Assembly (NCBI RefSeq): GCF_016406105.1
Contig: NZ_CP066308.1
Coordinates: 2,901,501 to 2,965,500, forward strand
Origin: Brevibacillus composti
Lineage (GTDB): Bacteria > Bacillota > Bacilli > Brevibacillales > Brevibacillaceae
DNA: 64,000 nucleotides
Direction: 5' to 3'
In this document: positions 19,068 through 55,462 of the stretch, one piece after another
Layout of the letters: the number at the start of each line of letters is the position of its first letter
Position numbering within the stretch: position 1 is the first letter of the stretch
Notes under the pieces: generated by a model
Seen by the model: only the letters and a program-made list of their open reading frames with translations
Told to the model about the DNA's origin: nothing
The model's database searches: none
Translations under genes and position numbers: made by a program

Positions 19068-20729
19068 ATGTATACGGCCATATATCCAAGGGTTTCTACA
19101 GGCATGCAAGCATCAGAGGGCACAAGCCTTGATGCACAAATTGAGATTTGCATGCGGAAAGCGAAAGACTTGGGAATTCCCGAATCCATGATCAAAGTTT
19201 ATCGCGAAGAAGGATTCACAGGTGAAGATATCGATCGGCCCGCCATGAATGAATTCAGACAAGATGTTGCGCAAGGGCTGGTCCGTCGCTTGATTGTTAC
19301 CCACCCCGACCGGTTGACCAGGGACTTGACGGATAAATTAATCCTTTGCCGTGAGCTGGAGCGGAGCAATATCGAGCTGGTGTTCGTGGACACGGAATAC
19401 CGGAATACGCCGGAAGGGCAGCTTTTTTTCAACCTGATGAGTTCCATAGCACAATACGAGTTGTCTTTAATCAAGAAGCGGACGGTACGCGGAAGACTCA
19501 AAGCGGTGGAAAAAGATAAGAAGATCATGCCCATGCGTGTGGCTCCCTATGGATATGATCTTCATGAAAATACCTTGATTATCAATGCGCAGGAAGCCGA
19601 ATTTGTCCAGAAGATATACCACTGGTATGTTCATGAGAACTATACGCTTCGTGAAATCGGGGATCGACTCTATGCGTTGGGGGCGGTACCCAAACGAGGG
19701 GAAAGCAGGAACTGGAGCGCCAGTTCCATTAGAAGGGTTCTTACTTCTGAGGTGTACATCGGCAAGTTCTATTACAATCGTAGAGAAACCCGGAAGATTC
19801 GCGGGGAGAAAACCAAGAACGGCACACCGAAAAAAACATATGCCTTTCGCGAGGAAAAGGACTGGATCGAGGTTACCGTGCCAAGTATCATTGACCCGCA
19901 ACTGTTTGAATTAGCCCAGGTGCAGAAAGAGAAAAACATGAAACGGTCAGGAAATGTAAAGTATGAGTATTTGTTAAAATCCATGATCCGGTGTGGACAT
20001 TGCGGCAGAATGTGGCAAGCAACTACTTATACAGGCCGGGTAAATAAAGAAACGGGAGAAAAGATCCGTTACACCTGCTACAGATGTCCAAACCTCTTCC
20101 CAAAGAAGTATGGTGAAGGAGTTGAGAAGTGCCCAACTCAAACGTTGCGCGCCGATATGTTGGATCATTACGTCTGGCAGCTCATTTTGGAGACATTGTC
20201 TAATCCCGATGATTATATGGAGCGGCTGCAAAGCAAATCGAATGAGATTAACCTGGAACTTCAATCCGCCGCGGACCACATCAAACGTCAGCTGGAGCAG
20301 AAGGAGAAGGAAAAGGAAAAAATCAAAATCATGTTCAAGCGGGAGGTCATTGATGAGCAGGAGATGCTTACCGAAATGCAAAAGATTAATGCCGGACTAA
20401 AGTCGTTGGAGCAAGAGCTTGCCGGGTACGAAAAGCAGTTGTCAGAACAAGCGGAGAAGGAAATATCGGCCAATCGGATTGCCGAGGTCTCCAAGGCTGT
20501 CCGAAACTTTATCGAGAGCGCCGGCGACGAGCTTACCCTTGAGGAGAAGCGACATATCCTGGAGACCCTGGTTGATGAAGTTATTATTCGCTACGACGGG
20601 AACGAAGTACAGATTACTGCAGTCGGCGCCCTTGACGAGTTGAAACGGCAACAGTTTCTTCAGCATGAGGATGACATCGGTTCGTGTTCACAACCTCAAA
20701 AAGTTCGAGAACACCGGAGAAGACAGTGA
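19068..20729 (+). CDS. large serine recombinase, SpoIVCA-like
   Basis: The ATG at 19068 follows AAAGGAGAAG; the product has 553 residues. The N-terminal resolvase domain starts [23 protein letters not shown] with the nucleophilic Ser10 in the Y-x-R-V-S motif, and [21 protein letters not shown] follows. Next come a recombinase domain ([29 protein letters not shown]), a zinc-ribbon ([11 protein letters not shown] ... CYRCPNLF ... EKCPTQ) and a coiled coil (about 430-490). This layout is that of SpoIVCA, which rebuilds sigK in the mother cell of B. subtilis. The end of the reading frame crosses the crossover point at 20698: the last ten codons (KVREHRRRQ) lie in sigK DNA, so recombination would change its C-terminus. 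Confidence 0.88.
20673..20725 (+). other. recombination junction, element arm to sigK 3' half
   Basis: Element arm GACATCGGTTCGTGTTCA (20673-20690), then 7 bp (CAACCTC), then the likely crossover AA (20698-20699), then sigK sequence AAAGTTCGAGAAC. The identical arm at identical distance from the crossover occurs at 55239-55265, on the same strand but with core TT. The two sites are thus inverted relative to each other. Confidence 0.88.
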
Positions 20730-21210
20730 AGATTTGATTTCCATTGGAACCATCGGGTTAATCAAAGCGATTGAGAGTTATCAGGTTGATAAAGGGACAA
20801 AGCTGGCTACCTATGCTGCGCGGTGCATTGAAAATGAGATCCTGATGCATCTGCGCAGTTTGAAAAAGACAAAAAAAGATGTCTCCCTGCATGATCCCAT
20901 CGGTACGGACAAAGAAGGAAACGAAATCACCCTGATCGACGTGCTCGGCACCGAAACGGACGAAGTGGTGGATGCAGTGCAACTGAAACTGGAATCCAAC
21001 AAAATTTACCAGCATATTCACATCCTCGACGACCGGGAAAAAGAAGTGATTATCGGTCGATTCGGGCTGGATCAGGACAAGGAAAAGACGCAGCGGGAAA
21101 TCGCCCGCGAGCTGGGCATTTCCCGTTCCTACGTATCCCGGATCGAAAAACGGGCCTTGATGAAGCTGTTCAATGAATTTTACCGGACGAAGCAGGCACA
21201 GGGGAGATAG
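20700..21210 (+). pseudogene. sigK: sigK 3' half (spoIIIC-like gene segment)
   Basis: From [28 protein letters not shown] through [34 protein letters not shown] to [46 protein letters not shown] the sequence is SigK, containing most of region 2 (including the -10 recognition helix) and regions 3 and 4. It lacks regions 1.2 and the first part of region 2 and has no start codon of its own. The rest is encoded at 55266-55462 on the minus strand. This is a gene segment that becomes functional after DNA rearrangement and not a decayed gene. SigK directs late mother-cell transcription in sporulation (spore coat, cortex, lysis). Confidence 0.92.
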
Positions 21211-21533
21211 TGTTCATTCCTTCGGGAGTTGATACGCGCTCACTTCTTGGCATGTGTGCCCCTTCGCTGTCTTGAGGGACGATTGCGAAGGGGGATATTC
21301 CCGCTAAGGGGTGGGCCTTTTTCTTGCCAGCGAATCAGGGACAATGAGATCCCGGCGTGGACAACACTCCACGCCGCTTTGTCATTTTTCGTACAGATGC
21401 CATGAAAGAAGGATAACAAAAACGAAGGGGTCATACGGCAGTGGCCTCCCCCTTAGTTGACTCATCCCCACCTTTATATTAATTTTGTAGTATTCTCTCA
21501 TGGACAGCAGATTAAATATTGGGGTGATCTAGT
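21211..21533. other. intergenic region after sigK, hairpins only
   Basis: Two strong hairpins are visible: CCCCTTCGC with GCGAAGGGG at about 21260-21294, and GGCGTGGA with TCCACGCC at 21354-21375, followed by GCTTTGTCATTTTT. They likely end sigK transcription. No gene was seen. Confidence 0.6.
21354..21392 (+). terminator. terminator downstream of sigK
   Basis: An 8-bp perfect stem with a 6-nt loop is followed by a T-rich tract (TTTGTCATTTTT). Confidence 0.65.
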
Positions 21534-23839
21534 TTGTATGAAGAAAGATTGTATGAGCTTATCTGCGAAAACAGCGCTGTAGTCGACATCACAGATGAGG
21601 AGCAGTTTTATCGCTTTTCGACTTCGTTTATGGCGCAAGAGCTTAACATTCCTCGAAGCATTGCTAGCTCCACCCTGAACAAACTGTACGGCACAGGCGA
21701 ACTGACGAAGATCAATACAAGACCCGTCTATTATTTGAGCCGCACACAGCTGGAGATGCGATTTCATGTTGATCATATCCCCGCATTGTTTTCAAGCGTT
21801 GATCAGTTATCTGCTTTTCTCCAGCAGAATCATGAAAGGAAAGATACCTTTTCCGCCATCATCGGCCATGATAAAAGCCTAAAAACGCAAATAAAACAGT
21901 GCAAGGCGGCGGCGTATTATCCTGGGACGGGGCTGCCGCTTTTAATAAGCGGACCTACCGGGACCGGCAAAAGTATATTGGCAAAGCATATGCACACGTT
22001 CTGTTTACAGAAAAAACTGATTATGGAGAATGCTCCGTTTATTACATGTAACTGTGCGGATTACGCAGACAATCCAGAATTGCTGACGGGCGTGCTTTTT
22101 GGGTATGTAAAAGGTGCTTTTACCGGAGCGGACCATGACCGAGTTGGCATTCTAGAGCTCGATGAAGCCCATCGTCTCAGTTCCAGCGGTCAAGAGAAGC
22201 TGTTTATCTTTATGGATCAAGGGATCTTCAATCGGCTAGGCGAAGGTTCCAAAAACAGAAGGAGCAAGGTTCGGTTAATTTTTTCCACCACAGAGCGTCC
22301 CAAAGATGTATTTCTTGAAACCCTATTGCGGCGTATTCCCATCCACATTCATATGCCGGCTCTGGAGGAACGAAGCAGGGAAGAAATTGTGCACCTGATC
22401 TGCCATTGCCTCAGCAATGAGTCTCGCATGTTAGGCCGCGATCTGATTGTCGGCCAAGAATTTTTCAAAGTGCTTTTGCATCATAAATTTGAAGGCAACA
22501 TCGGAGAGTTGAAAAACGCGATCAAGTACGCTTGTGCCCAAGCGTATCTCCTCTTTTGTGAGCAGGATGCCGATGATGTGATCGCTGTACAATGCAGCGA
22601 TCTGCCGGACAAGATCGTCAACGCCTCAAATCGCAACCGTCATTCAAACGGGTGGGAGTGGAAACTGGCTCCCGAACGAATCCGGATATCCAAAAACTTC
22701 AGATATGAAAAAATTCAGCGGTTGGTAGAAAAACAAGCCACCTCTCGCCATGTGCAGACAGCATATGAACATGTGTATCATGCTTATCTCTTTGCTGCCA
22801 ATCAGCAGGCGGATCAGACAGCAGCGGGCATGGAAAAGAAGTTGAAACAATACATGGATGTGCTGGTTGAGGAGCAAAAAAGCATCGGGTCAAACATCCA
22901 GTTATCCGTTCTGGACGCAACCATCACTCATATCCTAGACAACTTTTTATCCGCCTGGGATGTAGCCCTGCCCAATCATGTGCGCCATTTTCTCTCTCTT
23001 CATTTTTTCAGAAGAATGAATTTTATGAATATGGATAACGCGATATCTGGAAACGAATCAAAGCGATTCGAAGCTTTCTTGCAAGTGAGTTTCCGCAAGT
23101 GTATTCTCTGACAGAGAATCTGTTTCAACTCTTTTCGATCAATCTCGAAGTCCGTCTCAAGTACGCTGATTTTATCATCCTTGCCTTATGCATCAAGATA
23201 AGCATGCAGCAGTCAAAGACGTTTCGCACGAAAGCCATCATTGTTGGAAACGGATATTCTGCCGCAACGAGTATTGCAAATACCGTCAATCGATTGCTTG
23301 ATCATCAACTGTATGATTCCATCGACCTGTCTCCCGATATTCCGGAAGAAGCATTTGCCCAACGGATCCGTTCGATAACCGAAAGCGCTGACCAGAGAGA
23401 CCTGATTGTCCTGGTTGACACGGATCGTTTTGTCGAACAAAAAATAGCGATTTCCGAACAGTTTACGGGCAGTGTGTTCATCCTAAGAAATATAACGACG
23501 CAATTTGCCCTCGGGGTGGGGCGTGCGATCATGCAGGATTTATCCGCGGAAGAGATCTTTGGTTCTCTCTCCAACCATCATCATCTGAAATACAATCTTT
23601 ACCACTCCTATGGAGTGCCGTTTTTTAATAGCAATGGGGTAAATTTGTTCCTCACGATGTCGAAAACGGTCCGGAATATTGGGTGGAAAAAAACGGGATG
23701 GGTTTGGTTAATCGCAGTTTATCAAGTGATTCTGATGGTGTGGCATCATATGAACAGAGTCGGCACAGACAAGTTGGCCGAATGGATGAACACTAGTCCA
23801 TTGACATTGTCCGAGATCAATAACGAAAAAGTTGATTGA
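21534..23839 (+). pseudogene. LevR-type sigma-54 activator with PRD/EIIA, frameshifted
   Basis: The first 525 codons (TTG 21534, GGGGTGATC upstream) encode a DNA-binding N-terminus and an AAA+ sigma-54 activator domain: Walker A LISGPTGTGKSILA, the sigma-54-contacting loop GYVKGAFTGA (GAFTGA), Walker B GILELDEAHRL. A PTS-regulation domain (PRD) follows, and the frame ends at FRKCIL. The same PRD continues one frame over as VYSLTENLFQLFSINLEVRLKYADFIILALCI, then an EIIA-like domain (TKAIIVGNGYSAATSIANTVNRLL). The shift is near 23093-23098. The downstream frame is also degraded after about 23640. The full regulator would act on PTS sugar operons with RpoN; in the present form it should be inactive. 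Confidence 0.8.
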
Positions 23840-23952
23840 ATCTATCCTGAAAATTAACTCGTAGCACGAACTGAAAAAGGCAGCACGAAGTTGACCCTGA
23901 ACCTTACAAAAAATGGTTAGGGTTAAAACGACGAAATATAGTCACTAAAGGC

Positions 23953-25173
23953 TCAAGATGCTACTGATTCTTCTGTGACCTTTAACCCCAAGGATTCAAG
24001 TTTCTTTAGAGATTGTCTGATGATAGTGTCGCGTTTGCGTTCCTCGTAATAAGTCGGGCCCAATTCAATGTAAGGTTGTCTGCGCTTGAGAATGTAATAC
24101 GCGATCATCAATATGCTGTGAGCTACGGCTACTACTGCTCGATTGGCTCCCCTACGTGCGGCAATCCGATGGTATTGACTGGACAAGTACGTATTCTTCG
24201 TTCTCCCAGCGGCGCGTGCAGCTTCAACAAGAGTGCTTCGGAGTTTCTTGTTCCCTTTACGGGTCTTTCCTGATTTACGTTTACCGGCACTTTCATTTTG
24301 ACCTGGACACAGCCCCGCCCATGAACACAAATGAGCGGCGGAGGGGAATTGATCCATATTGGTGCCGATTTCGGCTACAATCGTTTCAGCCGTTCTTCTC
24401 GCCACTCCGGGAATCGTGTCCAGCAGTTCCAGGTCTTCTTCAAAAGGGAGCATGCGCCTCTTGATCTCTTCGTCCAGTCTGCCGATTTCTTCGTCAAGAT
24501 AGTCGATGTGCCGCAGTTGCGCTGCCAGCATCAGTTTTTGATGGTTTCCCATCAGCCCATTCAGCGCTCGCTTTAAATCTTCTTTTTTGTTTTTCAATCG
24601 CCGCTGTGCCAGTTCCGAGAGCAGTTCAGGGTTCTCTTCTCCGGCGATCATCGCCTCAATCATGGCTCGACCCGATTTCCCAAGCACATCGCTGGCGACA
24701 GACGACAGTTTGATGTTGGCGCCTTCAAGCACTTTTTGAACGCGGTTGACTTCTCGTGCGCGTTCGTCAATGAGGCTGCGTCGGTATCGAATTAACTCTC
24801 GCAGTTCCCGTTGATCGCGGCTTGGGATGAAGCTACCTTGCAGCAGACCGTGACGAAGCAGTCCGGCAATCCACTCGGCATCTTTGACATCCGTCTTGCG
24901 TCCGGGCACATTCTTCATGTGCTTGGCGTTTACAACCAGTGTTTGAATCTCCTCAAGCTCTAACAAGTTGTAAATGGGCTTCCAGAACGAGGCGGTGCTT
25001 TCCATCGCGACATGGGTGCACCCTTTGCTTTTGATCCAATCGACAAGTAGGATCAGGTCATCGGTCATAGTAGAAAAGGTCCGGATTTCTTTGGTTTCAG
25101 GTGTGATCACACAGGCCACCACGTTCTTCTTGTGAACGTCCAGCCCGCATACGTGGGTATAAACGACGTCCAT
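23953..25173 (-). CDS. IS110 family recombinase (transposase)
   Basis: The 406-residue protein has an N-terminal RuvC-like DEDD domain (CGLDVHKKNVVACVITPETKEIRTF with the first Asp; [36 protein letters not shown] with the later acidic residues), a coiled-coil middle, and a C-terminal transposase domain (DTIPGVARRTAETIVAEIG, CSWAGLCPGQNESAGKRKSGK) holding the catalytic serine region. It appears intact, unlike the copy at 52.9 kb. IS110 enzymes use a bridge RNA encoded next to the gene to choose donor and target DNA (established for IS621). Its 5' non-coding region is listed separately. Confidence 0.88.
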   Translation of the reverse strand: MDVVYTHVCGLDVHKKNVVACVITPETKEIRTFSTMTDDLILLVDWIKSKGCTHVAMESTASFWKPIYNLLELEEIQTLVVNAKHMKNVPGRKTDVKDAEWIAGLLRHGLLQGSFIPSRDQRELRELIRYRRSLIDERAREVNRVQKVLEGANIKLSSVASDVLGKSGRAMIEAMIAGEENPELLSELAQRRLKNKKEDLKRALNGLMGNHQKLMLAAQLRHIDYLDEEIGRLDEEIKRRMLPFEEDLELLDTIPGVARRTAETIVAEIGTNMDQFPSAAHLCSWAGLCPGQNESAGKRKSGKTRKGNKKLRSTLVEAARAAGRTKNTYLSSQYHRIAARRGANRAVVAVAHSILMIAYYILKRRQPYIELGPTYYEERKRDTIIRQSLKKLESLGLKVTEESVAS

Positions 25174-25415
25174 ACAGCAGAACTCCTTGCGGCGGTATGG
25201 ATTGAGGGCTGGTGCAGCAACCGTCGAACGATTATTCTATCCTGCGTGCTCCCGAAAGGGGCAACAATCTGTGGTGCACCTGGTCGCTGGGGTTCTGTCT
25301 AATTCACGGGCTCGAAAGCACCATAGTTCCACGACCTCCCTCGCCAGCCGCAAGTCCATTATACCGTACGCACCCTATTTTCATCATCTGATGGTGCCGC
25401 GGCAGCGGCATGGGT
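25174..25415 (-). ncRNA. candidate IS110 bridge RNA, copy A
   Basis: About 240 bp without a gene precede the transposase start. The DNA is conserved with the same region of the copy at 52.6 kb in blocks (GTGCACCACAGATTGT, CAGCCCTCAATC, CAGATGATGAAAAT), separated by variable stretches. Small stems such as GCCGC/GCGGC keep pairing while their loops differ. This conservation of structure with changing loops is what bridge RNAs show. The transcript's exact ends are unknown. Confidence 0.55.
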
Positions 25416-25435
25416 GTCTAAATAGAAATACATCA

Positions 25436-25600
25436 TTAGTAGTTATAACCAATAAACAACATGATCGCTACAAAAATTGCACACGTAACCCAAGTATATA
25501 GAGAAACCTTGGATTTAGTTGAGTTCCATCTCGAAAGAGCTGCCAACCCAATCAAGGACACGGCAATAAGCAGCAAAATAGGAACCATCAGAAACCACAT
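25436..25600 (-). CDS. 54-residue two-span membrane protein
   Basis: The ATG at 25600 follows AAGGTGAGGGG. The product has two hydrophobic spans (WFLMVPILLLIAVSLIGLAA and TWVTCAIFVAIMLFIGY) joined by a short basic loop (SRWNSTKSK). The protein has no recognised family; its shape recalls small stress or toxin-like membrane peptides, but there is no evidence for that. It lies between the IS110 copy and a broken calcium-binding gene, inside the segment assigned to the sigK element. Confidence 0.6.
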   Translation of the reverse strand: MWFLMVPILLLIAVSLIGLAALSRWNSTKSKVSLYTWVTCAIFVAIMLFIGYNY

Positions 25601-26132
25601 ATTTTACCCCTCACCTTAAAAGAAATGCCCCCGCTGGTAGTAAATGTGTCTAATAATACCCATATTATACCATCGAAATCCGTGAAGGAGAAAGAAAGAT
25701 AAGCCCACAACAACGGGTTTTTTTGCAACCTGAAAACGAGAGAGGAGGCAAACATGGTGATTTGTCGCCATGGAATCCAAATCATCAGCCCCAAAGTGGG
25801 GAAATGACTGGTTTTTTCTTTTTTTGGAAAAAGGAAGCCGAAGCACATCTTGTACTCATGCTTGAGGTTATGAAGTGATTTGATCACGAGAGACGGCTGA
25901 TAGAGTAATGGAACGGTAATTTGTTGGAGATACCTTTGGGGAAAATTGTATGGTAAGAAACTAACAAGCTGCACGGGTGATGCAGTATTGACCGAATGAA
26001 TGTAGCACTCAAGCGCAGAAGCTGGAAATATTTCTCATAATTATAGGGAATTTAGGTAATTTTTGTTTACTGATTTGCTATAAAATAGTATAAATATGTT
26101 GTATTTGGTTAAATATACCAGGGGGTAATTTT
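25601..26132. other. 532 bp without a clear gene
   Basis: The region is A+T-rich. A hairpin-like AGCCC...GGGTTTTTTT occurs near 25704-25727. A 17-codon frame (ATG 25754, after GAGGAGG; MVICRHGIQIIS...) has a good ribosome site but cannot be judged. The reverse-strand frame of 128 codons has no ribosome site and an unlikely composition. Confidence 0.4.
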
Positions 26133-26446
26133 GTGAAAAAATTAAAAAAGGTTGTTTGCTAATTTTACTCACGGTTTTAGTTAGTACAACTGAAATGTCC
26201 TCTAACGTTCTTGCATTTGAATCAGAAAGGGCTGATTACTATGAAATTGACACAGATGGTGATGGCTTGAAAGATATTTATGAAATGGAAATACTAAATC
26301 CAAAGGAAAAAGACAGTGACGGAAATGGTATACCGGATGGAAATGAAGACACAGATAACGATGGTTTAACCAACCTGGAGGAACAAGATCTGGGAACAAA
26401 TATAAATAAAGCAGATACAGATGGTGATAAACTGGAGGATTATCGG
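26133..26446 (+). pseudogene. thrombospondin type 3-like calcium-binding protein, truncated
   Basis: A GTG at 26133 after AGGGGG begins KKLKKVVC, and the signal-peptide continuation LLILLTVLVSTTEM is in the next frame, so there is a single-base shift near the A-run. The exported part repeats calcium-binding loops: DTDGDGLKD, DSDGNGIPDGNED, DTDNDGLTN, DTDGDKLED (D-x-D-x-D-G type). Coding is cut at about 26447 by the left end of the IS3 element. Full-length relatives are secreted or surface proteins; the role here is unknown. Confidence 0.7.
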
Positions 26447-26635
26447 TTTAACCCCTTAAAATTTGAGTCTTTCACCCTTATTTTCGCATTTTCATATGCT
26501 TCTTCCCTCCTTCAACCACCTAGGAGTCTAGGAAGGAAAACGCCTAGCGTCAAGGAGATCACTTGACCCCAGACGTTTTCCTTCCTGCTTGTCAGCTAGG
26601 TTGAAGTAGGGATCATTCTGCAATCCTTTGCCATA

Positions 26636-26819
26636 CTACACTTTCACAACAAATGGTGTAATGAGTTGCAAGGCAAAGGCTTTACCAAATTCTACAGGTG
26701 ATAAATCGTACAAGCTTCCATGAATCCGTCGCTGATTATAAAAGAGCAGATAGTTTGTCACGATTTCATAGGCTTCTTGATAGCTCTGAAATTCATTCCG
26801 CTGCAAACATTCTTTCTCC
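26636..26819 (-). pseudogene. IS3 orfB transposase, 3' part
   Basis: The frame KECLQRNEFQSYQEAYEIVTNYLLFYNQRRIHGSLYDLSPVEFG is the last portion of an IS3/IS150 transposase, with the conserved YNQRRIHGSL. It is cut off from its 5' part by the IS21 element; GGAGAAA (complement TTTCTCC) is duplicated on both sides. Confidence 0.88.
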
Positions 26820-26883
26820 TGTATTTGGCAAGTAGAAAATGTACCGTTTGGCAATTAAAAATGCACACTTGCCAACCAGGGTA

Positions 26884-27603
26884 TCATCGATTCATCAGTG
26901 AATCCTTATGACGAAAACTATCACGATTAAAAACAATCAAATGCGAATAGTGAATGAGACGATCAATGAATGCTTCCGTCAGTATTGGATCGCCAAAAAC
27001 GTGATTCCATTGGCCGAACTGTAAGTTCGTGGTTATGATGACACTACGCTTTTCATAACACAGATTGATCACTTGAAACAGTAATTCTGCTCCTTGCTTG
27101 TGAAGGGGTACATAGCCTAATTCATCAAGAATTAATAGATCCAGGCTCTCTATTTGTTTAAACAGCCTACCGAGAGTTCCTTTCTCGTTAACCTCTAACA
27201 GGCTGTTCACGAGTTGAGCGACTGTATAGAAGCGCACCCGTTTTTGGCTTTTTTGGATGCAGTTCCAGCCTGCCAAGGCTGCCATAAGCGTTTTCCCGAC
27301 CCCGACGCCTCCATATAGGATTAAATTCTCTTTTCTCTCTATGAACCTGCCTTGCAAGATTTCTTCCTTTGTAATGTTTCCATTCATATGAATACCGTGC
27401 CATTCTAGCTGCTTGCCAGATATATCCGGCAAACAGGATTGACTGAGAAGGAGATTGAGCTTCCGTTCCTCTCGTTGCTGTATTTCCCTTTCGAATAAGC
27501 AGAGCAGAAATTCTTCATGTGTTTCAGCTTCCACCGCGTGATAATTCTCCCGTATCCAACTTAATTTCAAACGCTTGGCATGCTCTTCAATGAGGCTTCT
27601 CAC
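26884..27603 (-). CDS. istB: IS21 helper ATPase IstB
   Basis: The 239-residue protein has the IstB domain order: N-terminal helices (RSLIEEHAKRLKLSWIRENYHAVEAETHEEF), Walker A LYGGVGVGKTLMAALAG (about 100-112), Walker B LDLLILDELGYVPL (about 155-168), sensor SVIITTNLQFGQW and the C-terminal AFIDRLIHYSHLIVF. The start overlaps the istA stop by 4 nt (ATGA). It appears intact. IstB assembles on target DNA and activates IstA. Confidence 0.9.
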   Translation of the reverse strand: MRSLIEEHAKRLKLSWIRENYHAVEAETHEEFLLCLFEREIQQREERKLNLLLSQSCLPDISGKQLEWHGIHMNGNITKEEILQGRFIERKENLILYGGVGVGKTLMAALAGWNCIQKSQKRVRFYTVAQLVNSLLEVNEKGTLGRLFKQIESLDLLILDELGYVPLHKQGAELLFQVINLCYEKRSVIITTNLQFGQWNHVFGDPILTEAFIDRLIHYSHLIVFNRDSFRHKDSLMNR

Positions 27604-29111
27604 CGCTGCTCACCTCCTGGCATAATCATCAACCGATCATAATGAGAGAGGCCTCTGCTTGAATTTCTAGTTGATGGCACTGAAGGCGGAAGCGACAGTG
27701 TTTCTCGAATGCCTCGTCCATTCACAAGCTGATAATAGACGTGCTTGATGGATTCCGTGGTAGGATGTCCATGTTCGGATGCAATCCGTAGGGCTTGTAG
27801 AGATATGTCGAAATCCTGTTCCTTTAATATGACGGATAAAAGTTGGAGAGCATTCCGTTTCTCCTCGACTGTACATTCACCGAAAAAGGCTTTCCATTCC
27901 TCCGGCAATTGATCGTAGAATGAGCTGTATTTCAAAGCGGTTGGCCTCTTTGCCATCAAGGTCAGATAAGGTTGCCAGTCCATCGACTTCTTTGTCTCCC
28001 CATATAATCTGGGGTGGCGTACGATCACTTCATTTTCCTCGTTCAGAAGCGAGATCGTATCAAATGAGATCTTCGCCAAGACCGCTTGTCCCGCAAAGCG
28101 TGGCGAAGTGGAATATTGCTTTTGGTCAATACGGACGATTCCGTATTTATCCGCTTTGACCTGCTCGAACCGAACGCATTCGTACGCTTTACCGGGCAGT
28201 TGGAGGAAGCGCTCCTTGTCTTCCAAATATAGTTCGGCAATCAGGGTATCCTTTTCATAGTGGCAACGTTTCCGATCCCCCAGGCTCCAATTCAGGGTCT
28301 TCTCATTCAAGACCGACAGGTCTTCATAGTGGATTTCCGGCAACAGATAGTTGTTTCGTATGTATTTGACCATCGCTTCCACGTGCCCTTTCTCGTTTCC
28401 GCTTCCCGGATTGCAGAATTCATATTGGAAGCCATAATGGGCAACAAAACGAGCGAATTCCTCTGTTACTTGCCGTTCCCCGTTTGGCAGCACTTTCTTC
28501 ACCGCAGGTGACAGGTTATCGAAACGGATCGTATGCGGCACGCCTTCTAGAAAGGCGAACATGTTCGTCAGTCCTTGTAGAAAACACTCCCGGTTTTGGG
28601 AAGGGAACACTTGAAACAGGAATGAATTGCTGTAAGGGAATGAGAGGACGAGGAAGGGCAAGATGACCTCTTTTCCCCTGTGCTTAAAAGGAGCTTCCCC
28701 AAAATCTACCTGTGCTGTGCCGGCCTTCGCCTCTAACGGTAAGGCAGTGTCATTGCTCTCGTCCAATAAGGCGGCTTTCCTTTTCGCCACATAGGCACGA
28801 ATCGTACGGTCAGAGCCTTGGAATCCATGTTCCGAAACGAGAAGAGTATAGATTCGCTTTGCGGTTCTTCTGAACTTCTTTTTCTTCCCCATATCTTCAA
28901 GTAGCCATTGATCAACGATTGGTTTAACCGGATCCATTACATTGGCTTTCCTTGTCTGTACAGACTTCACCTCCTGATTGAAATCCTCCATCTCCGAATA
29001 CTTCTTGATTGTCCTGCGATCCATATTCATCTGTCTTGCAACAGAAGAGTAGGAGCGACCTTTTGTGTTTGTTTCATGTCTGATATAATTGACTTCAGCC
29101 ATTGCTAACAT
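27600..29111 (-). CDS. istA: IS21 transposase IstA
   Basis: The 503-residue protein starts with a helix-turn-helix (KGRSYSSVARQMNMDRRTIKKYSEM), followed by an rve core: TAQVDFGEAPFKHRGKEV (first Asp), TIRFDNLSPAVK (second Asp) and GNEKGHVEAMVKYIRNN (Glu). It is complete and, with IstB, could be active. An istA scrap identical to codons 31-66 sits at 10.4 and 13.0 kb in the opposite orientation, so the element or its relative was once also there. Confidence 0.9.
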   Translation of the reverse strand: MLAMAEVNYIRHETNTKGRSYSSVARQMNMDRRTIKKYSEMEDFNQEVKSVQTRKANVMDPVKPIVDQWLLEDMGKKKKFRRTAKRIYTLLVSEHGFQGSDRTIRAYVAKRKAALLDESNDTALPLEAKAGTAQVDFGEAPFKHRGKEVILPFLVLSFPYSNSFLFQVFPSQNRECFLQGLTNMFAFLEGVPHTIRFDNLSPAVKKVLPNGERQVTEEFARFVAHYGFQYEFCNPGSGNEKGHVEAMVKYIRNNYLLPEIHYEDLSVLNEKTLNWSLGDRKRCHYEKDTLIAELYLEDKERFLQLPGKAYECVRFEQVKADKYGIVRIDQKQYSTSPRFAGQAVLAKISFDTISLLNEENEVIVRHPRLYGETKKSMDWQPYLTLMAKRPTALKYSSFYDQLPEEWKAFFGECTVEEKRNALQLLSVILKEQDFDISLQALRIASEHGHPTTESIKHVYYQLVNGRGIRETLSLPPSVPSTRNSSRGLSHYDRLMIMPGGEQR

Positions 29112-29243
29112 CTCCTATATACCTCCCATGAACGTTATGCCCAACGGGGAGTGTATGTTTTTTAATAGATGTTGGCAAGTGGCTCTTTTTAATATGAGCA
29201 TAAATTAGCTGCCATTTAGTACATTTAAATCATGCCATAAACA

Positions 29244-29996
29244 TTTCTCCAAAACACTGTGAAATGACTCAATGTGAGCGTTTTTATTGGGTGTCTTTGG
29301 AGGAATTCGCTCATGCACCGTTTGGAAATGCTGACAGGCTTCTTCAAAGGCATGGCTAATAAACTGTGGACCGTTATCCGTACGGATAACAGGGCGATCA
29401 TCACAATTGAATTGCTGCCGTTTCCACAAAGCACGTTGGAGAATCTGAGCAGCATGTTTTCCTTCGCAGGTCAGTCCGAAATGGTAGTCCACGATCGCTC
29501 GATCATAGACATCAATGAGACTCATCAGGAAAAAGAAACGCTGTTCTCCTACGATAAATCCGTATTTTACGTCCATCTCCCACAATTGATTCGGAGCGGT
29601 AATCTCTCGGTTGTTTGCCAACTTTCGAGGATGTTTCCTTTTCTTTTGTCGTTGTGGTTGCAGGAGTTCTTCTTCTTTCAGCAAGCGGTAAACCTTTTTC
29701 TTGTTGATGACCAGTTGGTGGTCTCGCCGTAGGCAGACGGTAAGCTTTCGATATCCATAAGCAGATTCTTCATCGGCAATCAGCTCGGATAGCCATTCTT
29801 TGATTTGTTCGTCACTGACAGGTTGTCCGTCTTTTGACAACGAATAACCGGGTATAGGTCTTCCTCCGTGATAAACGCGAGGTTTTTGGGAGGCTTTGTT
29901 TTTTCGGTAATAGTAGGTTGCTTCCAGGATGCCGACAATACGTAGCACTAGTTTGGCTGTGTACCCCAGCTGTATCCACTTGTCGGCTATTTCCAT
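29244..29996 (-). pseudogene. IS3 orfB transposase, 5' part
   Basis: The ATG at 29996 overlaps the end of orfA. The frame has the HTH_21-like region (ESAYGYRKLTVCLRRDHQLVINKKKVYRLLKEEELL) and the rve core with NQLWEMDVKYGFIVGEQRFF (first Asp) and VIRTDNGPQFISHAFEEAC (second Asp), up to HIESFHSVLEK, where the IS21 begins. It cannot make a full transposase in its current state. Confidence 0.88.
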
Positions 29997-42798: not shown

Positions 42799-45700
42799 CA
42801 TTCTGTATATCACCTTTCCGCAGTAAAATCCTAACTCGATTACCGTTGCCGGTTCCTATATGATCTCTGACAAGTGCTTCAAATCGGCTTCTCAACTCAT
42901 CCACTGTTAATGGATGGCCATTCCCAGCCATCTGGACCAATTGATCTACTGATAGCTCAACTTTACGAATCCCCTCAAACAAGTCCTTCAAAGTTTGGAC
43001 TAGTTTTAAGTCTACGGGGGAAGAGAATTTCCCTTCTTGGACAAATTGTTCAATTAACTGTCTTTGTTCAGCATTAAGTAACGAAATACTTTCTTTTATC
43101 TCGGCATCATTCAATGTGCTGATTACAGTCTCCGTCCAAGATGTCAGTAATTCCTCGAGTTCTTCATTCAGTTTAGAAATACTGACTTGCTGAATGTAAG
43201 GTTCATCCTTCGGGCGATATCGGCAATGAGGGCAAATCACCGCATGTTCCAAGTCATCTTTCTTCAAATTCCAGCAGAACTTTAGCTGATCCAACTTGGA
43301 CTTCCATTCCTCCAGCTGTCTTGAAGGCAGGATAGAGATGCTTGCTAATTGACGCAAAGTTGCATATCTGCCATCTTGCAATAGTTGATCCTTCTTGTTC
43401 TGATCGGTAATACCGAATCGAGCGCTGCTATGCATCGCGTAATACAGATCGATATACTGTTCTTTCAGCTTCTGTAAGCTTTGAATCTCTTTCTGGCAAT
43501 CTCCTCCCACTTTCAGAGCATGGAGAACGTCTTCTAATGCCCCTTCGGCTTTCGCATGCCATTCATGTTTCACTTGTACGTGATTGAGCGCATTTACGAT
43601 ATACTGCGCCTTTTGCGTTACATCGATCGCCTTTTGCTCTAATGCTCTTAACTGTTTAGCCAGTTGTATATGCTCTTGCATTGTCTCGATATCGGCGATC
43701 GAGTATTTGAAATTTTTCAATCTAGCTGGTGTGTTATATACACTCAAGCTTTGTAAAAATTCGTTAAGCTTCCGTAGTTTCTGTTGATTTTCTTTAATTT
43801 CGTTCTCTGACAGCAACGGAAAATCCCATGTCGGAATCCCGGATTTAATATCCTGCTCCAACTTTACGATCTCTTTTAACAACTTCTCCACTTCCACTTG
43901 TAACTGTGCGACCCCAGTTGTTTGGGATTGGGGTTGGAGAAGTCCATGACTGATTGCAAACAGATCAAATAATGCTCGCAATTCTGCTAACGGCAAATCA
44001 GATGGCTTCTTAATGTGAGAAAACTCCATAATGCCTTCTGCCTTTAGACGAATTAATTCATCGAGTTTCATTGAATCATAAGTCGTGCCGTTGATTGTGA
44101 TGACGATATCTCCGCTATATACAAGCGTAACCAACAATACCGCCAGCAGTTCCGGCTCTAATTTAAACTGTACCGTTCTCTTTACTTCTATCCCGCCGGC
44201 GATTCGTTCCGTATGCAGCAGCTCAGAAGCATTAACAACCTGATTATGACCTTTGGAGTTCACAAGCTGCATAATCCAATTCGCATATCCGGATTTTTGA
44301 ACGTTCAATTTATCGCCATCGAGCAATACAAGTCCTTCCAGAATCGCCCTAGCCGTTTTAGTTTTTGTAGCTGATTGGATCGAGCTTAACGCCTCCGGAA
44401 TATAAGTAGTCTTTAATACATCCCATTTCAGGCATGTCCTGTCTGTTCGAAATACAGGGTAATCCGGATATTTCTCCTCGAACCATTGTGTTAAGCATTC
44501 ATCGGCCGCGGTGTCCACGATTTCACGAACTGTCGCTTGCGCGGGTGCAGTAAAGCTCCAATCTGCCAACTTTTTCGTAATACCTCTATAAGTCATTTTA
44601 AACGCGGTTGGCATATTTACCTTGAACCACGAGGTTAATTCCTTAATGTAATGGTTAGCTTTTTCTTCGTATAACCCCTTCGTAGCGGTTGAAGCCGTTA
44701 ACGCCATTTCCTTAGCCCCGGCATACTGCTTCAAATTATGGAACAGCGTCTGATCCTTCGTATCAAGCACGAAGAAAACTTCGTCCGGCTTCTTCTCATC
44801 CTTAAATTTTGGAACATCGAATGCTTGTAAGAAATAGATATAGAAATCCCGCTCCGGCTGAGCCGTGGAACGTTCATTAGGTGCACCGAAGAAAAGATAA
44901 CCTGGCCTTGTTGCTTTGTGACTATACCAATCCAGTTCGTGTTGCCAGATTCGATATCCCGTAACATATGTAGACGGTGAACATTCAAGCACTCGTTCTA
45001 ATACTTGAAAATAATAACGATCTAACTGCTCTCCGCTTAACGTTTCCGCTTTACTTGCAATGTGATCATCTACAGGAACATCCTTGTCTAGATCAAGATA
45101 ATACTGTCCATTTTCTTGATTCGTGGAAATAAATTGATAGCTAACAGACTTCAATATCTCTTTCAGTGTTGACTCAATGGTAGTATCGAGAAACTCTACG
45201 TCCATATCACAGTTTTTATCGAACAAGAACAATTGGTCCCGCATTTCCGATGGTGTCATTCCAATTCGAACCCTCAGATCATCCGTTGTAAGTCGGAAGA
45301 CAGATAGAGCCTGAACGATTCGTTTGGCCATCGGTTTGTATGACGGTTTTTGGAATGCATATTCGACCCTGTCCAGCAGGACATCTGCTTTCTCCATGAC
45401 TTCCCGAACATCCGGATCTGAACGCAATGTGCTATCGGATTGTATATAGGTCCAATAGCTATCAAAAGAAACAATCCCGGGGCTGTCTGCCGGAACATCT
45501 TGATCGAGAAGTTTTTCAATTTCATCGCTAATGGTCGTTAGAGCAACGCGTTTCTCCGCAATCTTGACCTTCTGAAACGCAGTTAAATAAGCCGGATGAA
45601 TCGGGAACAGTTCTACATACTTTTCAAGTTGCTCCCCTAACTTATCATACAATGGAGCGAACTTTTGCAAGTGTTCGCGGATATAAGCTTTTTGAGTATC

Positions 45701-46474
45701 GTTCTTCTTAAGTAGCCGCTGCGAAACGACAAATTCAATATCTTCACGAGCAATAATAGCCTGAACCGTACGTTCCTTAACTCTTCTTAATTGCTCAGCT
45801 ACAAAGGCAAATCGCGGATTATCAAACAGCATTTCCTGCACGCCGGTCATAAAGCGGAACCTTGTCGACTGTGTAATCTCGCCCATGGCCCGGAGGAAGT
45901 TAAGGTCCAGCATCAGTTCCTGTTCTTTCCTGCTGCGCAAGTAATCCAACAATTCATCTATAATGAGAAGAAATCCATGGTCCGGATATGTCTCGTGGAA
46001 AACAGACATCAATTTGACGAACTCATCTTTATTGCTGACAACTTGAGAAAGCTCTGGCATTTCATAGTTAACACCAATGCTTTGTAAGTATTCCGTCATC
46101 TCCCGAAACAGCACTTCGCGAAACGGCATATCAATACCGTCGAATTCGATTCGAAGCACTTTAAACTTTCCTTCGATTTCTTTGGCCTTGGCTGCAACTG
46201 TCTGATTTTGCAAACGGCCACTCGTACCCGGATGTTCAGCTAGTGCAGCAATCACACTCATCAAATGCGATTTACCCGTTCCATAATTTCCGACAACCAT
46301 AATCCCTTTATGGTCAATAGGACGATCAAATTGTAGTTGTTCGATAATAATATCATTTAGTACTTCTGCCATCCGGTTAGAAATGACATAATTATCAATA
46401 ATGCTATCATCAGCGGTTCTTAATTCGATAATGGAGCGAATGGGTTCAAACTGAACAAGTTCGCGATACTTCAT
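42794..46474 (-). CDS. brxC: BREX P-loop protein BrxC (PglY-like, DUF6079)
   Basis: The 1,226-residue ATPase has Walker A IMVVGNYGTGKSHLMSVIAALAE (about 60-82) and Walker B HGFLLIIDELLDYLRSRKEQE (about 175-195). It then has a long helical region and a zinc-knuckle-like CPHCRYRPKDEP near residue 1,100. Extended coiled coil is predicted at about 900-1,050. It is the second gene of the BREX-3 operon, 23 bp after brxF. BrxC is essential for the BREX complex and is thought to be an AAA+ motor; the mechanism is open. Confidence 0.85.
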   Translation of the reverse strand: MKYRELVQFEPIRSIIELRTADDSIIDNYVISNRMAEVLNDIIIEQLQFDRPIDHKGIMVVGNYGTGKSHLMSVIAALAEHPGTSGRLQNQTVAAKAKEIEGKFKVLRIEFDGIDMPFREVLFREMTEYLQSIGVNYEMPELSQVVSNKDEFVKLMSVFHETYPDHGFLLIIDELLDYLRSRKEQELMLDLNFLRAMGEITQSTRFRFMTGVQEMLFDNPRFAFVAEQLRRVKERTVQAIIAREDIEFVVSQRLLKKNDTQKAYIREHLQKFAPLYDKLGEQLEKYVELFPIHPAYLTAFQKVKIAEKRVALTTISDEIEKLLDQDVPADSPGIVSFDSYWTYIQSDSTLRSDPDVREVMEKADVLLDRVEYAFQKPSYKPMAKRIVQALSVFRLTTDDLRVRIGMTPSEMRDQLFLFDKNCDMDVEFLDTTIESTLKEILKSVSYQFISTNQENGQYYLDLDKDVPVDDHIASKAETLSGEQLDRYYFQVLERVLECSPSTYVTGYRIWQHELDWYSHKATRPGYLFFGAPNERSTAQPERDFYIYFLQAFDVPKFKDEKKPDEVFFVLDTKDQTLFHNLKQYAGAKEMALTASTATKGLYEEKANHYIKELTSWFKVNMPTAFKMTYRGITKKLADWSFTAPAQATVREIVDTAADECLTQWFEEKYPDYPVFRTDRTCLKWDVLKTTYIPEALSSIQSATKTKTARAILEGLVLLDGDKLNVQKSGYANWIMQLVNSKGHNQVVNASELLHTERIAGGIEVKRTVQFKLEPELLAVLLVTLVYSGDIVITINGTTYDSMKLDELIRLKAEGIMEFSHIKKPSDLPLAELRALFDLFAISHGLLQPQSQTTGVAQLQVEVEKLLKEIVKLEQDIKSGIPTWDFPLLSENEIKENQQKLRKLNEFLQSLSVYNTPARLKNFKYSIADIETMQEHIQLAKQLRALEQKAIDVTQKAQYIVNALNHVQVKHEWHAKAEGALEDVLHALKVGGDCQKEIQSLQKLKEQYIDLYYAMHSSARFGITDQNKKDQLLQDGRYATLRQLASISILPSRQLEEWKSKLDQLKFCWNLKKDDLEHAVICPHCRYRPKDEPYIQQVSISKLNEELEELLTSWTETVISTLNDAEIKESISLLNAEQRQLIEQFVQEGKFSSPVDLKLVQTLKDLFEGIRKVELSVDQLVQMAGNGHPLTVDELRSRFEALVRDHIGTGNGNRVRILLRKGDIQNG

Positions 46475-46497
46475 ACTTCACAATAACCCCTTCTATA

Positions 46498-46956
46498 TTA
46501 GATTTCGATAACATAACTTGAATACGAGTTATCGCTTTGATAATATTCAGGATGTTCGGGTGTTGCGTATATTAAAGCGCCGTTCTCCAATGTGCCTGGC
46601 CAGTGAATTACGAGCGTCTTGTTCCCGCTCAAATTTTCGAACAACCGAATAGGGTTCTGCTTCAATTCGGTATCAAATAAATACTCAATATGGTCAAGAA
46701 AAACTACATCCTTATTTTCCCCTGCTAGAAGTGATCGAAGTATCCTGCCTACTTCGAAAGGCCTTTTTTCTGGAGGAAGTAGTCGTAGTTGCTCAGACAA
46801 TAATAAGCCTACGTTAAGGATTGGAATCTCCATTTGATGAATGGCACGTTGCAACTCTACTTGTGAAATCCGACTCACCACAACAAATAACATTTTATTT
46901 CGTTTAGTTCTAGCAGTCTTGATCTCCAAAGCAATCGATTCTTGTAAACTCGCCAT
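46498..46956 (-). CDS. brxF: BREX-3 protein BrxF
   Basis: The start chosen is ATG 46956, 7 nt after GGAGTG, which gives 152 residues; a longer start at 46992 lacks a ribosome site. The product (MASLQESIALEIKTARTKRNKMLFVVVSRI...) is a small P-loop-like fold with LFVVVSRISQVELQRAI and DVVFLDHIEYLFD (a Walker B-like strand). No classical GKT is present. BrxF is specific to type 3 BREX and opens the operon; the order brxF-brxC-pglXI-pglZ is the reason for the name. Confidence 0.72.
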   Translation of the reverse strand: MASLQESIALEIKTARTKRNKMLFVVVSRISQVELQRAIHQMEIPILNVGLLLSEQLRLLPPEKRPFEVGRILRSLLAGENKDVVFLDHIEYLFDTELKQNPIRLFENLSGNKTLVIHWPGTLENGALIYATPEHPEYYQSDNSYSSYVIEI

Positions 46957-47082
46957 ACTTTCACTCCGGTCATCCGTGCATTCGAATTCCAAAATCGGAT
47001 CTCAAGAACTATATTTCGACAGCCTAATGGTGTATTCCTGCCCTGGATTACTTAAGCTCATATACTATTATACAAAATATCG

Positions 47083-48594: not shown

Positions 48595-48597
48595 AAT

Positions 48598-48695
48598 TCA
48601 ACTGTAAAAATTGTCTCGATCGTTTGTCGCGGCAGTCCGGATGGAGCGAGACGAGGAAGGAGTTGCTCAAAGAAGTTCCAATATGATACTCTCAT
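48598..48695 (-). pseudogene. 5' end of an operon gene cut by the IS4 element
   Basis: An ATG at 48695 overlaps the stop of the nuclease gene (ATGA), so translation is coupled. The frame reads MRVSYWNFFEQLLPRLAPSG... to TIFTVEF and meets the IS end at 48597. The remaining part is not present beyond the IS. The family is unknown from 33 residues; in pPIWI-RE islands a helicase gene follows the nuclease, which makes that a possible identity. Confidence 0.65.
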
Positions 48696-49759
48696 TCGTT
48701 CATCGCCTCCCTTTCCAGCACTCTTAGGATATCTTTTTCATTAATTACCTGAAGATGACTCGTATGAGACGCGAGTGCTTGTGTAACGAGCCTTGCATAA
48801 CCGGGATATAGTTTATTTCGGTATTGCGGAATGACAATATATACATGAGGCTCTCGATATTTCTCTAGTTTGTGAGGTTGCATCTTGTTGAAGAAGTTGG
48901 CCAAATGAAGCGGATGCTTAAAATCTTTCATATCCAAATATACAGAATGGGAATCTAACTGAATCGCAAGATCAAATCGATCAACTTGCGGGAATAGTGT
49001 TACTTTGTAGCCTTTCTTTGTAAGCCAATCTTTGACAGAGAGTTCTGCCAAACCCGGTAACATCGTGTAACGATAAATTCCATAACGCAGTCTCTGCAAG
49101 GGCTGGGTAGTTTCCCATCTCTTAAGATCTTCGCGACTGGACAGATTACCGCAGAGATCTTCTGTCCCACATTGCCAGTTATCGTTACGATACTCCAGTG
49201 TCCATCCGCATCGTGGACATCTACGATATCGGTCTGAATCATCCGTCATATCTTCATAACAGCGACTTAGCCGCTTCATCAATTCCGTATCTTGCAACTC
49301 CAGCCCGAACTCCATTAAACGATGTGCCGATACTACCGGATTCGTAATGATAAACTCACGAACCTTTCTGTACTTCTCCTCCAACATTGGTACCGTACCC
49401 CGACAGTAATGCAAAATTTCTAACATTTCTTGCGCTTGCGCTTCTTCCGGCGAGTCATAAAGGAAGATAAATTCACGAGCCGCTGGCGACAAGCCCAGAT
49501 ATGGGATCAGGAGCGGAGCTTCCAGCGGAAAAATATCGTCAACAGGAATGCCCCATTCAGCTGCCGGTTTCTGAAGGAATTGGATGAGTGATGGCAAGTC
49601 TATTGGAGCATCTTTTCCTTGCAGCATCAGAAGGCGTACAAACTGCATATGTCCTTTGCGTAACAGAGTCGGCAGCTCGCTGAAGTCTTCTCCCCACTGT
49701 TCCAAACCTGCGATTAAGTTCAGCAGACAATCCCTAACATCATTCTTGTCAATTTGCAT
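48692..49759 (-). CDS. PD-(D/E)XK nuclease-like protein, pPIWI-RE_Y type
   Basis: The protein has 355 residues. The N-terminal half is helical (about 1-170), followed by a zinc ribbon (RRCPRCGWTLEYRNDNWQC ... EDLC). The C-terminal domain has the nuclease pattern RFDLAIQLDSHSVYLDMKDFKHP (Asp at the first position; D-x-K at the second). This layout is that of the REase proteins accompanying prokaryotic Piwi-RE islands, but no Piwi gene is present. Its 3' neighbour is truncated by IS4, so a once larger defence operon joined to BREX is likely. ATG 49759; the ribosome site (GGTGGTG) is moderate. Confidence 0.65.
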   Translation of the reverse strand: MQIDKNDVRDCLLNLIAGLEQWGEDFSELPTLLRKGHMQFVRLLMLQGKDAPIDLPSLIQFLQKPAAEWGIPVDDIFPLEAPLLIPYLGLSPAAREFIFLYDSPEEAQAQEMLEILHYCRGTVPMLEEKYRKVREFIITNPVVSAHRLMEFGLELQDTELMKRLSRCYEDMTDDSDRYRRCPRCGWTLEYRNDNWQCGTEDLCGNLSSREDLKRWETTQPLQRLRYGIYRYTMLPGLAELSVKDWLTKKGYKVTLFPQVDRFDLAIQLDSHSVYLDMKDFKHPLHLANFFNKMQPHKLEKYREPHVYIVIPQYRNKLYPGYARLVTQALASHTSHLQVINEKDILRVLEREAMNE

Positions 49760-52588: not shown

Positions 52589-52639
52589 CTTTTTTCTCCC
52601 TCAATGCGCTATGACACATGCCCTCATAGACCCCCATGC

Positions 52640-52872
52640 CGCTAATGCGGCACCAGCAGATGATGAAAATGGGCGAATGCGGTACAATATTCCTGCGGCT
52701 GGTGGAGGGAGGTCGTTGTTTCTTGGTGCTGCGAGCCCGACTCTTAGACGGACCCCAACGACCAGGTGCACCACAGATTGTCGCTCCTTCGGGAAGCACG
52801 CGGGATAGAATGGCCCATGTGTGGTCGTTGCACCAGCCCTCAATCGACAAAGCCGCAAGGAGATTGTCCATC
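52640..52872 (+). ncRNA. candidate IS110 bridge RNA, copy B
   Basis: This is the non-coding 5' end of the element, 233 bp. It keeps the blocks shared with copy A (GTGCACCACAGATTGTCGC, CAGCCCTCAATCG, GATGATGAAAAT) and the GCCGC/GCGGC stem with a TAAT loop in place of TGCC. Differences cluster in the segments expected to pair with donor or target. Confidence 0.55.
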
Positions 52873-54100
52873 ATGGATGTCGTCTACAGCCATGTCTGTG
52901 GACTGGATGTCCACAAAAAGACGGTCGTGGCCTGCATTATCACGCCGGACGAGAAAGAAATCCGCACATTCTCGACCATGACCGACGATCTGTTGCAGAT
53001 GGTGGACTGGATCAAGAGCAAAGGTTGCACCCACGCCGCCATGGAAAGCACCGGTTCCTACTGGAAACCCGTCTATAACCTGTTGGAGACGGAAGAGATT
53101 CAAACCTTGGTCGTCAATGCGCAGCATATCAAGCATGTTCCCGGACGAAAAACCGATGTGAAGGATGCCGAGTGGATCGCTTCGTTGCTCCGGCATGGAT
53201 TGCTCCGAGGCAGCTTCATTCCGCCACGTGATCAACGGGAGCTTCGCGAGTTGATCCGATACCGCCGTATTCTGATCGAGGAGCGGGCACGAGAAGTCAA
53301 CCGGATTCAGAAAGTGCTGGAAGGCGCCAACATCAAACTGTCGTCGGTAGCCAGCGATATTCTGGGCAAATCGGCGCGTGCGATGATCGAAGCGCTGATA
53401 GCCGGTAACGTTGATCCGGAATCCTTGTCGGAGTTGGCACTTCGGCGTCTGAAGAACAAGAAAGCGGATCTCCAGCGCGCGCTCAAAGGACTGATCGGCC
53501 CGCACCAACGGTTGATGCTCCAAACCCAACTGCGGCACGTCGATGAACTGGACGCGCTGATTCAACAGTTGGACGAGGAGATCAAGAGGCGGATGCTCCC
53601 TTTTGAGGAAGACCTGGAGCGGCTGGAAACCATTCCCGGGGTGGCCCGGCGGACGGCGGAACAAATTGTCGCTGAAACGGGTACCGACATGAGCCGCTTG
53701 CCGTCTGCCGCTCATTTGTGTTCGTGGGCGGGGTTGGCTCCAGGGAACAACGAAAGTGCTGGGAAACGAAAGTCCGGGCGAACGACCAAAGGGAATCCGA
53801 AGCTTAGGAAGCGCTCTCATCGAGGCGGCACGGGCAGCAGTCCGAACGAAACACACGTATCTGTCCAGTCTATATCATCGCATTGCCGCCAGACGAGGGG
53901 CCAATCGGGCGGCTGTGGCGGTGGCCCATCGGATCCTGACCATCGTCTACCATCTGCTAAAGGAAAAACAGGTTTACAACGAACTGGGGCCTCATTATTA
54001 CGAAGAACGCCGGCGTGAACAGATGGCCCGACAAGCGATACGGAAGTTGGAAATGTTAGGATATGACGTTATGTTAAAAGAACGGGAGCAAACTGCATAA
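52873..54100 (+). pseudogene. IS110 recombinase, frameshifted
   Basis: The ATG at 52873 begins MDVVYSHVCGLDVHKKTVVACIITP, and the first two-thirds match copy A, with [19 protein letters not shown] and ESAGKRKSG. Near 53805 (AAGCTTAGGAAG) the frame shifts; the remainder (SALIEAARAAVRTKHTYLSSLYHRIAARRGANRA) continues in another frame to 54100. The protein would lose its last 80 residues, so it is probably inactive unless the shift is an error. Confidence 0.82.
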
Positions 54101-54900: not shown

Positions 54901-55238
54901 TCTGAGATTTGAGCTCTTATATCATACCGGCAACGGATACAGGAGAAATGCCTTTTACCGTTAGCCATAACAGACACGGAATTCATTGGCGAAAGTCATC
55001 ATGAGAAAATGATTTCAGGATTTCTGATGTACTCATCTCTATACCAAGTTTGTATGTCATAATCGTTTCTTCTGTCATACTGGAGCGCTTCATTTCGTGT
55101 TACCAACAGTATAACATAACACACTCAAAATCCAGAAGGAGATAAGCTGGCCTCTTTCGGAATAGCTTATCGATCCAGATGGCTTGTCCGCCCTCACCGA
55201 ACAAACCTCCCGCTGCACACAAACCGCGCCGCTTCCTG
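54901..55238. other. about 340 bp without a gene
   Basis: No coding frame with a ribosome site was found. It is the element's last stretch before the sigK junction and holds A+T-rich DNA followed by a G+C-richer part near 55140. The strand opposite could encode the altered end of the recombinase after inversion (see finding). Confidence 0.4.
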
Positions 55239-55290
55239 ACATCGGTTCGTGTTCATAACGTGTTCACAATATGGGCGACCAGCCGCAGGT
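55239..55290 (-). other. recombination junction, element arm to sigK 5' half
   Basis: Arm GACATCGGTTCGTGTTCA at 55239-55256 (plus strand), 7 bp, then crossover TT (55264-55265), then sigK 5' half read on the minus strand. Joining it with 20673-20699 makes a 52-bp site of perfect 18-bp inverted arms, 7 bp, AA, 7 bp. Confidence 0.88.
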
Positions 55291-55462
55291 TATGTTCGAT
55301 TAGCTTGTTCCTCGCCATCGGATCACCCTTGGCCATCAGCCGGAGATACTTTTCCTCTTCTGTGTCAGGCAGCGGCTGGGGAAAAGCATTGTTCTTGACA
55401 TAGGCCACGAACAGCATGATTTCTTTGATGAACAGCGATAGCGCTGCAAAGATGCTGGACAC
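55253..55462 (-). pseudogene. sigK: sigK 5' half (spoIVCB-like gene segment)
   Basis: The best start is GTG 55462 after GGGAGGTG; another GTG at 55471 is possible. The protein portion is [30 protein letters not shown]... to [15 protein letters not shown], which is the N-terminus of SigK, including the pro-sequence that must be processed and the start of region 2. After HIV the frame goes into element DNA (NTL, stop). It is completed by the segment at 20700-21210 after recombination at AA: GTG-AAA-AAG-TTC restores V-K-K-F. Confidence 0.92.

Follow-up and report, generated by a model that had tools for sequence, protein, structure and literature searches.

The coding sequence of sigK, a late sporulation sigma factor gene, is interrupted in Brevibacillus composti, as it is in skin elements. 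In the 64,000-nucleotide stretch of DNA analysed here (the window, to which all unlabelled coordinates refer), the two parts of the gene lie head-to-head and about 34 kb apart:

20700-21210, plus strand: sigK 3' part, from the base after the core of the recombination site to the stop codon (residues 62-227 of TIGR02846, the SigK model)
55265-55462, minus strand: sigK 5' part, with a GTG start at 55462 (TIGR02846 residues 2-68)

A profile search of the genome matched the model on the plus strand at 20686-21183 (residues 62-227, 280 bits) and on the minus strand at 55453-55256 (residues 2-68, 77.7 bits). A sequence-only reading of the same DNA had claimed that the halves are in opposite orientation, which these two partial matches on opposite strands bear out; the coordinates that it gave, 20700-21210 and 55266-55462, are correct within one base. 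The 3' part shares 97% protein identity with the intact genes of four relatives (G001, G010, G013 and G015). The 5' part presumably encodes the N-terminal stretch expected of pro-sigma-K, which it resembles.

When the halves are joined at the core, the frame is restored ([12 protein letters not shown]), as the sequence-only reading had predicted, and the resulting 236-aa protein scores 373.8 bits against TIGR02846, above the SigK cut-off of 298.65 bits. This is comparable to the 369.8-373.3 bits of the sigK matches above cut-off that are found in 11 of the 26 genomes of the genus. A complete sigK elsewhere in the genome had been named as a finding that would count against the split, and a TIGR02846 search of the whole genome found none. 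The only further strong match that the search gave (262 bits, residues 18-227) falls below the SigK cut-off and is read as a SigE paralogue, because every listed relative has a similar match besides its sigK.

Each half of the gene ends at a recombination site:

20673-20697, plus strand: P arm of attR, a 22/25 inverted match to P'
20698-20699, plus strand: AA core of attR
55238-55262, minus strand: P' arm of attL, a 22/25 inverted match to P
55263-55264, minus strand: AA core of attL

The P and P' arms are inverted partners, identical at 22 of 25 positions, and both joints have the arms of inverted symmetry around a shared AA core that are typical of skin elements. The second-best match to P within the window reaches 17/25, and any other partner for this arm was rejected on that ground; in the window shuffled 20 times at the single-base level, no match exceeded 18/25. 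The host arms, called B and B', share just 7 of 25 positions, which identifies the sites as att-type. Both P arms read from left to right on the plus strand. This comparison of the arms agrees with the earlier description of the sites as opposed, with the P arm at the left of both on the plus strand. The sigK halves, being on opposite strands, lack the direct arrangement that permits excision of a circle. Because attL and attR are inverted, the predicted reaction between them would invert the intervening 34.6 kb and rebuild sigK; from the site geometry, it could not excise the segment.

The enzyme that would carry out this reaction is probably encoded next to attR, where three genes follow one another:

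18039-18797, plus strand: 252-aa ORF conserved at the recombinase end of the element (96% to B. panacihumi W25; no Pfam or NCBIfam match)
18842-18994, plus strand: 50-aa ORF upstream of the recombinase, by its position a candidate recombination directionality factor (RDF)
19068-20729, plus strand: predicted large serine recombinase, 553 aa from ATG, with Resolvase, Recombinase and zinc-ribbon domains and a match to the phrog_95 integrase

A large serine recombinase at one end of the element is another feature of skin elements. The stop codon of the predicted recombinase lies inside the sigK 3' part and its reading frame crosses attR, so that its last residues would change upon recombination of the sites. 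With its 553 aa and its att-type sites, the system differs from Hin/Gin-type invertons, which have a small serine invertase and like inverted sites. The protein is 99% identical to the recombinase of B. panacihumi and 97% identical to that of B. invocatus, both of which belong to skin-type elements in direct orientation. Its dN/dS is 0.03-0.10 in five comparisons spanning 521 codons. A dS of 0.015 between this recombinase and that of Paenibacillus validus points to a probably recent arrival of the element. Four relatives of the recombinase were found in viral contigs. Paenibacillus cookii J21TS3 (L079) has a 96% identical recombinase and the small upstream ORF with no sigK 3' half adjoining, and its sigK is whole elsewhere.

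The small upstream ORF can be read as 66 aa from a GTG or as 50 aa from an ATG with a better ribosome site. A search with the 66-aa reading found it in 14 of 17 recombinase loci, absent from L080-L082. In excerpts of the work on B. subtilis skin, the 64-aa RDF encoded by skr has a position like that of the 50-aa ORF (PMC6957869). Searches of Pfam, NCBIfam and PHROG and a structure comparison gave no informative match for the 50-aa ORF and no homology to an RDF, and none of its 11 protein relatives is usefully named. A simple scan for a sigma-E promoter returned one weak, unconvincing match, inside the ORF. Between this ORF and the recombinase gene, inspection by eye revealed a hairpin with a T run after it.

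The segment predicted to flip carries two defence gene sets:

30453-34032, minus strand: Gabija genes gajB and gajA (PADLOC GajB 743 bits, GajA 880 bits)
34054-46992, minus strand: BREX gene set of helicase, brxA, pglZ, pglX, brxC and brxF (PADLOC DrmD, BrxA, PglZ, PglX/PglXI, BrxC and BrxF)

The best PADLOC model for the helicase on the BREX side is DrmD, and the BrxH models score lower. A gene for a pPIWI-RE-associated nuclease stands alone at 48692-49759. Rfam and tRNA scans gave no match.

The orientation of the halves was compared with that in other genomes. In 39 genomes of the family, searched with N-terminal and C-terminal SigK pieces and counted from the match lists, the pieces lie together in 17, apart on the same contig and strand in 18, on different contigs in three, and on opposite strands in one, the B. 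composti genome studied here, which is the only one of the 39 with this arrangement. Of 17 recombinase loci found, 13 in as many genomes were followed, the other four being in genomes already covered. Seven of the 13 are splits with both halves on one strand of the same contig, three are on different contigs, two are intact, and one has no N-terminal sigK match; one of the seven (G046) matches Anoxybacillus sediminis PCH 117 (G003) in its sigK positions and was not recounted, which leaves six. A class-wide draw of 250 genomes (N-terminal piece matched in 168, C-terminal piece in 159) added, by eye and among the matches listed, at least 11 more splits within a contig, each with both halves on the same strand, and at least seven on different contigs. 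The recombinase-locus and class-wide sets may overlap, and the number of direct cases is hence at most 35.

In all of these other same-contig splits, at most 35 among the matches listed, the halves share a strand, and the head-to-head arrangement was seen only in B. composti. The statement that known sigK splits are direct, for which a comparison with related genomes had been suggested, thus holds for every other same-contig split counted among the matches listed. In B. panacihumi W25 (G016) and B. invocatus JCM 12215 (G014), relatives with the same site, P and P' are on opposite strands and the sigK halves on one strand.

The survey also yielded some observations on sigK in general. Going by the match lists, the splits across the genus and family fall mainly at two positions, one near residue 62-68 and the other near residue 115-121; 22 of the 39 family genomes do not have a whole sigK in one place. 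A. sediminis (L048 and L049; G003:C1:2470000-2502000) has its sigK in three pieces, apparently because of two elements; relative to the flanking genes that match the B. composti window, the split gene as a whole lies in reverse orientation. Extra or decayed sigK 3' ends occur in the window at 6537-6693 and in B. centrosporus NRRL NRS 664 (G009), G002, G005, G013, G054, G109 and G216. Where such an extra end and the main gene are both listed on one contig, they are on the same strand.

Comparison with B. panacihumi indicates how the opposed geometry may have come about. Among the DNA matches listed, 32 blocks share one strand and one order; they start 60 kb left of the window and extend slightly beyond its right end. 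The stretch at 17614-21212, which includes the recombinase, attR and the sigK 3' half, is 96% identical to the same genome and reversed relative to the other blocks; between -1971 and 17613 there is no DNA match to it. By protein matches, the counterparts in relatives of the genes left of the window adjoin sigK on its downstream side, and those of the genes beyond 57 kb adjoin it on its upstream side. One weak protein match (30% identity) extends the downstream synteny to 3653-4477. Because the locus is otherwise collinear with its relatives, it appears to be the recombinase end that was flipped.

Two further genomes delimit the flipped block. Cohnella thermotolerans (L078) is collinear, at 99%, with the stretch at 15126-20029. 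Upstream of its recombinase, Paenibacillus sp. P25 (L070) carries Gabija sequence that is 99% identical and has the same direction. Together they support an uninverted order of the element, and the Gabija genes would match the arrangement in Paenibacillus sp. P25 if the block were turned back. The relevant features are as follows:

6537-6693, minus strand: decayed relic of a sigK 3' end, a 73% DNA match to 20952-21110
6709-15125, no strand: left breakpoint interval of the older inversion, between the sigK 3' relic (an inferred bound) and the Cohnella collinearity that starts at 15126
10400-13002, plus strand: 106-bp IS21 fragment, split by another IS21; an inverted copy of 28898-29003 in 100% identical pieces of 70 + 41 bp
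21213-30393, no strand: right breakpoint interval of the older inversion, between the end of the inverted B. panacihumi match and the Gabija match to Paenibacillus sp. P25
26820-29243, minus strand: complete IS21 that carries the second copy of the 106-bp repeat and interrupts an IS3 copy (26444-26819 and 29244-30403)

The present geometry is probably not an ancestral design: a later local inversion is likely to have flipped the recombinase end of what had been a direct skin-type element. The breakpoints of that inversion likely fall within 6709-15125 and 21213-30393, and the sigK 3' relic probably marks the side that was not inverted. Both intervals are rich in insertion sequences. The best exact inverted pair that bridges them is 106 bp long, in two overlapping pieces, and the next is 14 bp.

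Two candidate causes of the flip were considered and set aside. Homologous recombination at the 106-bp IS21 repeat was dismissed because the right copy is part of a complete IS21. Two IS110 copies, at 24037-25420 and 52627-54010, are 74% identical, and an inversion between them would move neither of the sigK halves. A 2.4-kb IS21 copy elsewhere in the genome (G000:C1:4396077-4397734) is scrambled, with an inner piece inverted.

Serine integrases need an RDF to recombine attL with attR, and the product is set by the orientation of the sites. In the mechanism proposed here, the recombinase and a directionality factor, for which the 50-aa ORF is the candidate, would act in the mother cell to recombine attL with attR. 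This would yield attB, where the whole sigK would lie on the minus strand and follow its native upstream region, and attP; both sites would be retained in the chromosome, and the BREX/Gabija island would likewise remain in the mother-cell chromosome. The recombinase alone would be expected to drive attP and attB back to the split state, which would make the switch directional and, in principle, reversible. The genome matches the dpaA and bofA models above cut-off, and the bofA model is matched in none of 14 control genomes.

The reading that we favour, with a probability of roughly 0.6, is that an earlier inversion flipped the recombinase end of the element and that the predicted recombinase rebuilds sigK in the mother cell by inverting 34.6 kb instead of excising it. 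The element is probably still able to rebuild the gene. The more specific proposal, that sigK is a directional inversion switch in which recombinase and RDF would flip the 34.6 kb in each mother cell, keep the island and allow reversal when the RDF is absent, we put at even odds. In excerpts of the work on skinCd from Clostridioides difficile, the recombinase inverts DNA between opposed attP and attB sites on a plasmid in E. coli, and an RDF is required for attL by attR recombination, the excision direction (PMC5025042). The plasmid result places inversion within reach of skin-type recombinases.

An alternative is that the switch is broken: a recent accidental inversion would leave sigK to be rebuilt late or never, with little sigma-K and poor sporulation. 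That B. composti is the single inverted case among the splits counted from the matches listed agrees with this, as does the lack of a match to the yabG model in the genome. The element also appears recently acquired; the flip would then be younger still, and the intactness of its genes says little for function. Inversions do hit sigK by chance, to judge from the excerpted report of a phage-resistant Paenibacillus larvae isolate, in which an inversion that interrupts sigK is listed as a coding-region disruption (PMC12453123). Against a broken switch, both halves, the arms, the cores and the recombinase are intact, and serine recombinases do act on inverted sites, as the skinCd excerpts attest (PMC5025042). 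On this balance we consider a broken switch unlikely and retain rebuilding of sigK by inversion as the better account.

It is also conceivable that the genome really has the direct order and that the inverted one comes from faulty assembly or represents one state in a mixed culture. Insertion sequences abound in the region, and one IS21 recurs in identical form in the genome; both points speak for this possibility. However, such an error needs a long inverted repeat at both breakpoints, and the chromosome is a single contig of 4.46 Mb. Since the only sizeable inverted repeat that bridges the intervals is the 106-bp pair, followed by one of 14 bp, a repeat-driven assembly error is unlikely, and we regard a direct true order as improbable overall. 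Least credible of all is that homologous recombination at the 106-bp IS21 repeat toggles the element between the inverted order and a direct, excisable one: this is the only sizeable identical inverted pair lying inside both breakpoint intervals, but 106 bp is short for frequent exchange, the right copy belongs to a complete IS21 with identical counterparts in the genome, and the exchange would have had to rebuild a whole IS21 from two parts, which makes it an unlikely source of the present order.

The B. composti sigK locus is thus most likely an inversion-type derivative of a skin element, and so far a single one. It shares with B. subtilis skin, with skinCd and with the 22-kb insertion of B. 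cereus biovar anthracis a split sigK, a serine recombinase encoded at one end, arms with a core, and restoration of the frame; according to excerpts of its description, the B. cereus insertion also carries a restriction system (PMC10745906). In skin elements the halves are direct and a circle is excised, whereas in B. composti they are head-to-head and inversion alone is possible. The “opposite orientation” of skinCd in the literature refers, in the excerpts available, to the direction of the element itself and not to that of the sigK halves (PMC5025042). The gin element in gerE of B. cereus and SP-beta in spsM are similar in that a sporulation gene is rebuilt by a serine recombinase and an RDF, but both are described in the excerpted source as excisions (PMC5595907), unlike the inversion predicted here.

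Invertible switches offer the other comparison. The C. difficile flagellar switch and the Hin, Gin and hsdS inversions likewise produce gene expression or a coding sequence by inverting DNA. They have like inverted repeats and run both ways. In B. composti, by contrast, attL and attR differ, and the direction would depend on the RDF. The P. larvae inversion also has one end in sigK; it is a gene-disrupting mutation in one isolate, and the excerpted report describes neither a recombinase nor rebuilding of the gene (PMC12453123). In a sample of PMC full text, no description was found of sigK or another sporulation gene rebuilt by inversion; within that scope, the claim that activation of sigK by inversion is undescribed still stands.

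The rebuilding of sporulation genes has so far been known as excision, which removes DNA from a doomed cell. If the reading proposed here is true, sigK of B. composti would be the first known case of a sporulation sigma factor assembled through inversion. If the switch works, one chance inversion can turn the same recombinase into a reversible switch. An excisable defence island can thereby become locked in the chromosome, as inverted sites would offer it no exit as a circle through attL by attR recombination while the host gene would still be rebuildable.
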